From a virus, in the IMG/VR virus record IMGVR_UViG_3300032893_000176, positions 1 to 37,097 of that record: a DNA stretch of 37,097 nt. One strand, 5' to 3'. How positions within the stretch are numbered: the first letter of the stretch is position 1; each line of letters starts with the position of its first letter. The notes beneath the pieces are model-generated. The model saw only the letters and a program-made list of their open reading frames with translations. It searched no databases and was not told where the DNA came from. Shown piece after piece: positions 6,457 to 37,096 of the stretch. A program made the position numbers and the translations under genes.

Positions 6457-6654
6457 TTATCCACAAAGAATAGCTTTTTTGATATCGTTCCAATAACTAT
6501 CACTATCCATCAATGTAATCATGGAGGACAATAACTCATTCAATGTTTCAATTTTATAATCATTTTTTCTTGTTAAGTCATAAATTGCTTTAGTGCAAAA
6601 CTCAAATCCTTTTTTAAATTCTTTAGTTGTTTCATGCAAAATTATATGTGTCAT
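6457..6654 (-). CDS. Hypothetical protein
   Basis: This 65-aa helical protein (MTHIILHETTKEFKKGFEFCTKAIYDL...) is not recognised. The start at 6654 is fixed by a strong GGGAGG site 7 nt upstream and by the ATGA overlap with the 31-aa gene before it. The pattern of a 'KKGFEF...' helix followed by 'LNELLSSMITLMD' recalls the CDS at 1569-1787, but similarity is weak. Its stop falls inside a chance DnaA-box sequence. Confidence 0.6.
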   Translation of the reverse strand: MTHIILHETTKEFKKGFEFCTKAIYDLTRKNDYKIETLNELLSSMITLMDSDSYWNDIKKAILCG

Positions 6655-7072: not shown

Positions 7073-7419
7073 TCTTCGATCTCCACTTCGATAATTTTAT
7101 AATTTCCATCCAAGTTGCTTACACATTTTTTTAGTCTTTCAAGCGATTCAAAGGCACCTGTACTGTGATAAACATTTTCGTCGTACTTACTTGGATTTAA
7201 TTCTATGGCAAGCCAAAGCTTTTTCGTTTTCGGCAACATGACGAGTTCTTTGCTAGTTGTTGAAAACCACATTGCTTCTCCATCGTATATGCAGCATATG
7301 GGAAGACATGACTTATCAGCTTTAAAATAATGCCATTCGTACGGCTCTCTGAGATCATGTTTGCGTGCGAACTTGTCGCCAGATAATGCTTTTTGTAAAT
7401 CGAAAGGCTTGTGATTCAT
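7069..7419 (-). CDS. Hypothetical protein, tandem paralogue B
   Basis: This 116-aa protein opens with a MNHKPFDLQKALSGDKF motif and contains REPYEWHYFKADKS, ELVMLPKTKKLWLAI and an acidic end IIEVEIEE. The neighbouring gene at 7416-7778 has the same modules in the same order, so the two arose by tandem duplication. The KPFDLxxALxGxxF opening is a familiar start of small phage proteins of unknown function. The start at 7419 overlaps the upstream stop (ATGA). Longer frames would run back into the paralogue. Confidence 0.75.
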   Translation of the reverse strand: MNHKPFDLQKALSGDKFARKHDLREPYEWHYFKADKSCLPICCIYDGEAMWFSTTSKELVMLPKTKKLWLAIELNPSKYDENVYHSTGAFESLERLKKCVSNLDGNYKIIEVEIEE

Positions 7420-7778
7420 TCTGTTTCTATCTCCACTTCGATAAAATTCCATCGGTCATAAGTAAGATCGGCCATTGCTTCCTCTTTTGTAGGATATGCA
7501 TCAGTTGCAGAGCGGTGCCCATTGGAACTCTGATGTTTTGAAATGCCGATCCAAACTTTTTTCGTTTTCGGCAACATGACGAGATCATAGGACGATTCTT
7601 GGGTTCTGTTATTATGACCCTCACTAGTGTAAGTAAAAATACTATTATCAAAAACACAAGCTATGCCATATAACATATTGGGTGTCTTGAAATAGTGCCA
7701 TTCGTCCGGCTCCCTCATATCTGATTTGCGCGCGAACTTTTCGCCACGAAGCGCTGCTTGCAGATCAAATGGCTTCAT
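7416..7778 (-). CDS. Hypothetical protein, tandem paralogue A
   Basis: This 120-aa protein begins MKPFDLQAALRGEKFARKSD, then REPDEWHYFK, YDLVMLPKTKKVWIGI and the acidic C-terminus FIEVEIETE. It is a clear paralogue of the next gene downstream (7069-7419), and the LVMLPKTKK region is nearly identical even at the DNA level. The start at 7778 has an AGGAGG site 9 nt upstream and overlaps the previous gene by 14 nt. The 31 extra residues of the longer frame are not supported. Function unknown. Confidence 0.75.
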   Translation of the reverse strand: MKPFDLQAALRGEKFARKSDMREPDEWHYFKTPNMLYGIACVFDNSIFTYTSEGHNNRTQESSYDLVMLPKTKKVWIGISKHQSSNGHRSATDAYPTKEEAMADLTYDRWNFIEVEIETE

Positions 7779-9826: not shown

Positions 9827-10375
9827 ATGTCCGCGATAGCACTTAGCTGGGTTGCCAGCATCCAAGTCGGTAATGCAACCGCCAAATCATTGTTAAGATT
9901 TTACGCATCACATAACTTTCAAGCCTCCAATCATTTTGAGTTCACTGTGAATACTTTGGCTCATCAACTCGAAGTCTCGGAGCGATCCATTCAAAATGCT
10001 CATGCCTATTTATTGAAAAATGGATTTATTCAACGTGAAATTCAATATGGCAAGAATGGTGTTCAATTAAGAACCGTAACGACCCTGTGCATACCTCAAG
10101 AATTCATCGATAAGTTTATGGGTAAATATACAAAATCAAATGAAAATCCTGTGGATAAGTCGGGGGGGGAGGGTGAACGTCCTGCACCCTACCCGGAAGG
10201 AGCTGCACCCTCGAGGGTGCAGGAGCTGCACCCCTTAATTATAAAAGGTAATAATAAAAAGCTTTTTTATAAGGGGGGTGAAAAAGAAAACAGCAAAAGC
10301 TATTCAACGCGTGAACATTCAAAAAGAGCCATTCGAGATATTAAACAAAAACTAAAAATGGATTGCCGTCATTGA
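9827..10375 (+). CDS. Winged-helix replication-initiator-like protein (lambda O-like role)
   Basis: This 182-aa protein has an N-terminal winged-helix region at residues ~15-95 (FEFTVNTLAHQLEVSERSIQNAHAYLLKNGFIQRE...). Next is a Gly/Pro-rich linker (~115-150) and a basic C-terminal helix (REHSKRAIRDIKQKLKM). As in lambda O, the DNA coding for the linker contains iterated sequences and an AT-rich block (10150-10276) that look like the origin the protein would bind. It is the first gene of the rightward block, with AAGGAAAT before the ATG. A transcriptional regulator role is the main alternative. No helicase, primase or polymerase gene is present, so replication would use host enzymes. Confidence 0.65.
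   Translation: MSAIALSWVASIQVGNATAKSLLRFYASHNFQASNHFEFTVNTLAHQLEVSERSIQNAHAYLLKNGFIQREIQYGKNGVQLRTVTTLCIPQEFIDKFMGKYTKSNENPVDKSGGEGERPAPYPEGAAPSRVQELHPLIIKGNNKKLFYKGGEKENSKSYSTREHSKRAIRDIKQKLKMDCRH
10150..10276. other. Candidate replication origin inside the initiator gene
   Basis: A perfect DnaA box (TGTGGATAA, 10150-10158) is followed by four CTGCACCC units: 10182-10189, 10203-10210, 10215-10222 (inverted) and 10226-10233. Units two and three form the 20-bp perfect palindrome CTGCACCCTCGAGGGTGCAG. Next comes an AT-rich segment (10235-10270, about four G/C in 36) bracketed by CCCCTTA and TAAGGGG. Iterons plus an AT-rich unwinding element within the initiator gene is the lambda/P22-type origin plan. 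Confidence 0.65.
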
Positions 10376-10401: not shown

Positions 10402-10617
10402 ATGAACAAATTTGAAGATGATCCATATTGGATGCTTTATGGTAATGTCGTTCCACTTAAAAAATCGCAAGCCAAGGCCGAAAATTTGCCCGCTGTTGAA
10501 CGAACGCAGAAAAAAGGTATAAGGCTAACGGCAAAGCCGCCAACGCCTCTCAGAGCGCCTGAGCCGAGTCCTTTGTTGAAAGATTATATGATTGAAAAGG
10601 GGATTCCTGTGAAATAG
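10402..10617 (+). CDS. Hypothetical protein downstream of the initiator-like gene
   Basis: This 71-aa protein (MNKFEDDPYWMLYGNVVPL...) has a Lys/Ala/Pro-rich middle (KPPTPLRAPEPSPLL) and is probably largely disordered. AGGAG precedes the start. Its place right after the initiator-like gene and ahead of the nuclease suggests an accessory replication role, such as a loader or adaptor, but nothing in the sequence proves it. Confidence 0.6.
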   Translation: MNKFEDDPYWMLYGNVVPLKKSQAKAENLPAVERTQKKGIRLTAKPPTPLRAPEPSPLLKDYMIEKGIPVK

Positions 10618-10684
10618 ATACTTATGTATTAATACTATACAAAATAATTTTTCTATATATAATATTAACTTAGGTTATTATTGA

Positions 10685-10738
10685 CCCTTATACAACATAC
10701 TTATCCACTAAATCTGTGGATAACTAAGGGTTTACCCT
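10685..10738. other. DnaA-box palindrome cluster next to AT-rich DNA
   Basis: TTATCCAC (10701-10708) and GTGGATAA (10716-10723) form a perfect 8-bp inverted repeat with a 7-bp spacer. The right arm is a perfect DnaA box (TGTGGATAA, 10715-10723) and the left (TTATCCACT) differs at the last base. An outer repeat CCCTTA/TAAGGG and a further AGGG-TTTA-CCCT surround it. The preceding 60 bases (10618-10680) are nearly all A/T. This is a plausible host-DnaA-dependent element or second origin module in a 155-bp gap without genes. Confidence 0.55.
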
Positions 10739-10772: not shown

Positions 10773-11099
10773 ATGACAGGCCGCAAAATAGATGCCAACC
10801 AACGTGAGATAGTCAAATGCTTACGAAATCTTGGCGTATCTGTTTTTATTATGTCCAATATGGGAAGAGGCTGCCCAGATTTATTGCTTTCTATTTTCGG
10901 CATTACTGCAATTGCGGAAATAAAAGACGGCAGCAAGCCGCCATCAGCTCAAAAGTTAACTAAGGCTCAAAAAGATTTCGCTGCAAACTGGAAAGGAGAT
11001 TATTACGTCATCCGATCTGTGGAAGATGCGATTAATCTTGTGTCCACTTTAAGGATGAAATCAAATGTTAGTAAGCAAATGCCACCATGCCCAAGTTAG
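10773..11099 (+). CDS. VRR-NUC domain nuclease
   Basis: This 108-aa protein is a stand-alone VRR-NUC (PD-(D/E)xK) domain: an N-terminal helix, then GRGCPDLLL (Asp36), a strand with AEIKDG (Glu49-x-Lys51) and a Gln-containing helix (LTKAQKDF). Small phage VRR-NUC enzymes act on branched or forked DNA and are commonly found near replication and packaging genes, perhaps as junction resolvases before packaging. The start at 10773 has AGGAA upstream. It overlaps the next gene by 35 nt. Confidence 0.85.
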   Translation: MTGRKIDANQREIVKCLRNLGVSVFIMSNMGRGCPDLLLSIFGITAIAEIKDGSKPPSAQKLTKAQKDFAANWKGDYYVIRSVEDAINLVSTLRMKSNVSKQMPPCPS

Positions 11100-36828: not shown

Positions 36829-37031
36829 TAAAAAACCTCCATCTCATCAAGGATTTTTCGAGCTGCTTTTTCTAAAGTCTCATATGCAGCATAATAATGT
36901 CCGCCATCCCATCCATCAGGATAGACTTTGATATCCCATTCCTCAGCCTCATTCTCCGGCTGATGAATGATCTCAACGGGCATACTAAATTTTTCACAAT
37001 GCTCGACTAGCCGCCTAAAATTAGCATACAT
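36828..37031 (-). CDS. Hypothetical protein across the contig junction
   Basis: This 67-aa protein (MYANFRRLVEHCEKFSMPVEIIH...) has a strand-helix look with WDIKVYPDGWDGGHYYAAYETLEKAARKILDEM. A strong AAGGAG lies 6 nt before its ATG. Its 5' 61 bases are repeated at 1-61. It is the first gene after the tRNA-like pair, and the next gene overlaps its stop. Function unknown. Confidence 0.7.
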   Translation of the reverse strand: MYANFRRLVEHCEKFSMPVEIIHQPENEAEEWDIKVYPDGWDGGHYYAAYETLEKAARKILDEMEVF

Positions 37032-37096
37032 AATTTACTCCTTTTTAATTTGGTGACGGTGGCCGGGGGTCGCACCCGGCGCGAAATGGGAGAGTC
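36971..37096. repeat. Terminal direct repeat, right copy
   Basis: This copy is identical to 1-126. It includes the 5' end of the CDS at 36828-37031 and the 3' end of the first tRNA-like gene. See the left copy for interpretation. Confidence 0.95.

Follow-up and report, generated by a model that had tools for sequence, protein, structure and literature searches.

Positions 10150-10270 of a viral DNA, IMG/VR record IMGVR_UViG_3300032893_000176, probably form a phage replication origin that lies within the gene of its own initiator. The whole 37,097-nucleotide stretch of this record is hereafter called the window, and the gene in question (9827-10375, plus strand) codes for an O-like winged-helix protein of 182 amino acids (aa), assigned by a PHROG_391 match and an AlphaFold2 model. 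The arrangement is best read as a hybrid, in which an in-gene origin of the lambda type is combined with a plasmid-type DnaA box and would make use of the DnaA and helicase machinery of the host. Three computational results carry this view: the anatomy of the region, the conservation of its repeats (iterons) as DNA and not as peptide, and the replacement of initiator together with iterons in related phages, where DnaA boxes recur.

Anatomy of the putative origin

The DNA-binding winged helix is encoded by the first part of the gene (residues 1-90, 9827-10096), as indicated by the PHROG_391 match, the AlphaFold2 model and structure matches. The sequence-only reading, an earlier interpretation of this DNA, had placed a lambda-type origin inside the coding sequence of this winged-helix protein and had described a perfect DnaA box, four CTGCACCC units, two of them forming a 20-base-pair (bp) perfect palindrome, and a 36-bp AT-rich block flanked by CCCCTTA and TAAGGGG. 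All of these are present within the open reading frame (ORF) 9827-10375, with the correction that the block measures 32 bp.

The DnaA box TGTGGATAA (10150-10158, plus strand), translated V-D-K, starts 21 bp before the first iteron and has counterparts in the initiator genes of related phages. Copies of CTGCACCC start at 10182, 10203 and 10226, and its reverse complement at 10215. A better parse of these units is a 19-bp inverted-repeat iteron, GGGTGCA-N5-TGCACCC, which would give two full sites and one half-site, all on the plus strand. Iteron 1, GGGTGAACGTCCTGCACCC (10171-10189), agrees with the motif at 13 of 14 positions, and its left half, GGGTGAA, is likewise the common variant in the L002 cluster of iteron-bearing loci described below. 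Iteron 2 (10192-10210) is by sequence a half-site, consisting of the right half TGCACCC at 10204-10210. Iteron 3, GGGTGCAGGAGCTGCACCC (10215-10233), agrees at 14 of 14 positions, and the palindrome (10203-10222) arises where iteron 2 adjoins iteron 3. The iterons are spaced by 21 and 23 bp and are read in two frames (phases 2, 2 and 1). Behind them CCCCTTA (10231-10237) and TAAGGGG (10270-10276) border the AT-rich tract (10238-10269; 28 of 32 positions A or T), the likely unwinding element; the richest A+T 40-mer of the gene (0.85) starts at this tract, a few bases from iteron 3.

Taken singly, these features are weak. When the window was shuffled by dinucleotides 200 times, a palindrome of at least 20 bp occurred in 18 of the shuffles, and some 8-mer was found at least four times within 60 bp in 52 of them, so neither the palindrome alone nor the repeat count alone is significant. 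As a set within one gene they are not chance. In synonymous-codon shuffles, which preserve protein and codon use, the 42 close 7-mer pairs of the initiator gene compare with a mean of about 10 and were reached in 0 of 500 (the repeat run in 0 of 300); twelve of the 13 other window genes were ordinary in such shuffles and the small-terminase gene was borderline (1 of 200). Perfect DnaA boxes number 3 in the window, 0.4 being expected, and 0 of 100 shuffles reached 3.

The initiator protein

The window protein matches PHROG_391, "replication initiation O-like", with an E-value of 9e-9 over profile positions 1-140 of 298. There is no matched stretch past position 140, so that the C-terminal half of the family has no match in this protein, which stops about 45 residues past the iterons. 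Lambda O matches PHROG_391 at positions 133-288, that is, in the half without a match in the window protein, and PHROG_391 is the only link between the two. The AlphaFold2 model shows a confident winged helix at approximately residues 1-90, low confidence at 129-162, a segment that overlaps the iteron-encoded stretch, and a moderately confident C-terminal helix. This helix (10299-10372, residues 158-182; EHSKRAIRDIKQKL) resembles that of the related phage L058 (4390-4476; EHCKTAMQIMSEKL), whose iterons differ, at a non-significant E-value of 4.6.

Structure search with the model returned winged helices, with the plasmid initiators 4pql, 4pt7 and 5kbj in the top matches, tied with generic ones; among viral structure models, a putative replication protein O was one of the best named matches. 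Lambda O was missing from the structure matches, a result without weight in either direction. Among solved structures, a search by sequence yielded generic regulators only, and neither BLAST with the region and the protein as queries (phage and plasmid records) nor a protein-based scan of viral contigs gave a significant match.

The same iteron in other O-like genes

The exact 19-mer at 10215-10233 was found in 55 other viral contigs. It lies inside an ORF matching an O-like winged-helix profile, among whose seed sequences is the window protein, in 51 of them; the remaining four (L019, L027, L033 and L053) are cut or ambiguous. The 51 loci fall into six protein clusters of less than 60% identity, with the window apart. 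Of 149 iteron sites, 133 are in one and the same frame, eight copies in L036 are spread across all three frames, and L051, like the window, uses two. Because the motif is read in different frames, the iteron is conserved as DNA and not as peptide. The 60 bp located 3' of the last iteron have a median A+T percentile of 0.96 within their gene in these loci. In the open-access literature we found no description of the GGGTGCA-N5-TGCACCC iteron, and none of DnaA boxes within O-like genes of phages. A single 19-bp iteron present across very diverse O-like genes could serve for origin prediction in uncultivated phages.

Apparent exchange of initiators and iterons among related phages

Relatives from the same lineage or neighbourhood were gathered via the portal protein, the large terminase, a conserved 71-aa protein encoded after the initiator and the endonuclease downstream of it; they are few and mostly metagenomic, and their loci are not fully independent. 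In this group, 11 related phages have at the equivalent position a different winged-helix protein and different in-gene repeats. Their initiators match PHROG replication-initiation, O-like or DnaD-like families, apart from that of L090, which is without match.

The repeats are CCCCCCCCGGACACAGTGACCTA, present three times 22-23 bp apart, in L058, and TTGGTTAGAACTAACCAATCG, present twice at 22 bp, in L060. L072 has two arrays of three at 22 bp, L075 three repeats at 21 bp and L079 three at 22-23 bp; L090 and L116 have three each (33 and 24 bp), L064 three, L065 and L073 two each, and L068 11-bp repeat units. Every relative thus has repeats peculiar to its own initiator gene, which suggests that initiator and iterons are swapped as a unit. 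Such a series of phages, with a shared backbone and co-exchanged initiators and sites, could make the rules of initiator-iteron pairing readable from sequence.

DnaA boxes and proposed recruitment of the helicase

A perfect or one-mismatch DnaA box is located 5' of the iterons in eight of the 12 initiator genes, the window included. In-gene perfect boxes are found in the window, L058, L060 (two), L068, L073, L116 and L065; the L065 box is on the opposite strand and 116 bp ahead of the repeats. L064 has a box with one mismatch, and in L068 a head-to-head pair of boxes stands inside the initiator gene. Among the first ten genes examined, six contain a perfect box, with 0.010 expected per gene; this gives P of about 2e-10 if the genes are independent, an assumption weakened by shared ancestry. 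Sense-strand perfect boxes always translate V-D-K/N, and no shared flanking peptide is visible.

We propose that the 182-aa winged-helix protein binds as dimers to the 19-bp iterons, which are set at intervals of approximately two helical turns, and bends the DNA, and that the AT-rich tract adjoining the iterons would then melt. Host DnaA at the upstream box, and perhaps also at a pair of boxes about 470 bp downstream, would aid opening and recruit the host helicase with the host loader. We infer this course of binding, melting, DnaA use and helicase recruitment from the sequence.

We lean slightly towards the view that the helicase is recruited by host DnaA and the host loader, because no P-like loader or helicase was found and because the initiator is without the C-terminal half of lambda O. 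No helicase, loader, primase, DnaB, DnaC or P family was detected among the window proteins at the thresholds used (25 of 53 families listed in the pooled PHROG scan). Their absence carries some weight because the record is probably a complete circle, as suggested by an exact 126-bp terminal direct repeat (1-126 and 36971-37096). Reliance on host DnaA and the host replisome had already been expected by the sequence-only reading; its DnaA part gains indirect support from boxes that recur in replaced initiators and by the nuclease gene, and what speaks for the replisome part is that no phage helicase or loader was found.

A tie between in-gene boxes and the absence of a loader is not claimed, as the cases are too few. 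L078, which encodes a P-like loader, and L075, which by eye encodes a similar protein, are both without a DnaA box and fit such a rule; L068 and L073 encode DnaB-like proteins (by eye), yet have boxes.

Alternative explanations

Several observations weigh against the hybrid origin. The window has just two full iterons and one half-site. The repeats of L075 are no more than in synonymous shuffles, and the richest AT tract does not stand directly after the iterons in L060, L064, L090 and L116. Four of the 12 initiator genes (L072, L075, L079 and L090) have no DnaA box within one mismatch. None of the 51 iteron loci has a perfect box in the gene or within 1 kilobase (kb), which means that DnaA does not belong to this iteron class in general. 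As for the loader, none was detected, and divergent loaders would escape the search. BLASTP and hhalign detected no homology between the window protein and lambda O, the DNA-binding part included. On the other side, a lambda-type in-gene origin is supported by the protein family, by conservation of iteron DNA in several frames, by the lambda-like spacing and AT position, and by co-replacement. In lambda, two iterons and an AT tract are enough for unwinding (PMC7466680).

The alternative that survives best, and that we consider quite possible if not favoured, retains an in-gene iteron origin and leaves DnaA out of it. The boxes would serve transcription control or DnaA titration, and a diverged phage protein would load the helicase, with the 71-aa protein as a potential adapter. 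This agrees with lambda O, which needs no box, and with the absence of boxes from the 51 phages sharing the iteron; it is opposed by the position of the boxes, which adjoin iterons within several non-homologous initiator genes and not promoters.

A second alternative, which we regard as improbable, places the true origin in the intergenic region 10618-10723 and makes the in-gene repeats operators for initiator autoregulation or origin pairing. Its first part (10618-10700) is 82% A+T, and after it there follows a head-to-head pair of DnaA boxes, TTATCCACT-AAATC-TGTGGATAA (10701-10723), the second of them perfect, which precedes the endonuclease gene. The pair, intact or degenerate, is present at the same place in L060, L064, L065 and L090. 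However, intergenic AT-richness is by eye not obvious in L064, L065 and L090, the in-gene iterons and AT tract are spaced and ordered as in lambda, and the iterons change with the initiator. Moreover, operators are usually located near a promoter, not approximately 340-410 bp into a gene.

The last alternative, a low-complexity protein linker that is repetitive in DNA by mere coincidence, can appeal to the disordered linker 129-162 encoded by the repeats and to the predominance of one frame elsewhere, but it is made extremely improbable by the use of several frames in single genes, by the failure of synonymous shuffles to yield the repeats and by the identity of the 19-mer across the divergent protein clusters.

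The pair of DnaA boxes was also considered as a stand-alone origin marker and rejected, as the pattern occurs in 94 viral contigs, of which just 11 have adjoining repeats (about 3 expected from flanks). In eight loci (L177, L178, L180, L181, L202, L203, L214 and L222) the pair is followed 47 bp on by the repeat TTGGAATTTTTAACTA at 22-bp spacing; no ORF was found over the pair, and the arrangement is origin-like. The third perfect DnaA box of the window (6457-6465, minus strand) is not in the origin region; it falls at the end of a short ORF on the minus strand.

Gene surroundings

The initiator gene is followed by the gene of the 71-aa protein (10402-10617, plus strand; FEDDPYW ... PEPSPLLKDY), a possible accessory without Pfam or PHROG match. 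An ORF of this kind after the initiator is common to L064, L065, L090 and perhaps L058. Proteins of about 70 aa with a DDxPYW start and an end near PSPLLKEF are kept after non-homologous initiators (window 10402-10617; L065 5472-5678; L064 7716-7937; L090 5001-5204), and the L003 cluster has O-like proteins with a similar C-terminal tail, FxDTSW. The small DDxPYW protein is possibly a replisome adapter. Next in the replication block is the small endonuclease gene (10773-11099, plus strand; phrog_93 endonuclease, E 2.5e-9).

A more far-reaching proposal is that the phage lineage possesses a loader-free, DnaA-assisted in-gene origin, in which initiator and iterons would be a swappable cassette and DnaA boxes with the DDxPYW protein a constant link to the host helicase; we put it forward as speculation that we ourselves rather doubt.

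GC skew, suggested by the sequence-only reading as a check, proved uninformative and was rejected as origin evidence. On the circle it has its minimum at 10,006, with a nearly flat curve from 9.1 to 10.2 kb, and its maximum at 34.1 kb, at the switch of gene direction; it follows the orientation of the genes and is near zero at third positions on the coding strands (0.02 and 0.01). The left gene block contains two diverged copies of an 89-bp direct repeat (75%; 7322-7410 and 7687-7775), which suggests a small gene duplication. The terminase of a close relative is found in L087, a 4.8-kb contig of a Candidatus Peregrinibacteria metagenome-assembled genome, possibly mis-binned.

Comparison with known systems

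Each lambda iteron is an inverted repeat of 19 bp to which O binds as a dimer (PMC5043065). Analysed with the same script, lambda O (L170) has iterons spaced by 20, 24 and 23 bp, and its repeats were reached in 0 of 300 shuffles. Its richest AT tract lies 3 bp behind the last iteron, and a search for DnaA boxes allowing one mismatch found none. No box is needed in O; in lambda, DnaA exerts its effect via the pR promoter (PMC7466680). With ori-lambda and the origins of Stx lambdoid phages the window shares the position of the origin in the gene, behind the DNA-binding domain, the inverted-repeat type of iteron (18-19 bp, at distances of 20-24 bp) and an AT tract directly 3'. It differs in iteron sequence and in the DnaA box within the gene; homology to the binding domain was not detectable, and neither the C-terminal half nor a P gene was found. 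The window origin would thus work like ori-lambda but, as two defining features, the C-terminal domain that recruits P and an adjacent P gene, were looked for and not found, it should not be filed as a member.

The iteron sharers with O-like proteins of PHROG_391/1032/270 (L002, L003, L016, L036, L037, L038 and L051) have in common with the window the winged helix, the iteron, its in-gene position and the AT-rich 3' side; they differ in their longer proteins with C-terminal parts and in the lack of a perfect DnaA box within 1 kb (0 of 51). RepA_N plasmid initiators (staphylococcal pSK41-type RepA) share the winged-helix fold, which is tied with generic proteins, so that no family claim is made. 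The RepA_N plasmid origin, too, is located within the rep gene. Iteron plasmid origins (P1, R6K, pSC101) combine iterons, an AT-rich tract and DnaA sites as the window does (PMC5043065), whereas the iterons of the window are inverted repeats inside a gene. These comparisons suggest that some phage origins are intermediate between lambda, with its own loader and no DnaA box in O, and the DnaA-assisted iteron plasmids.
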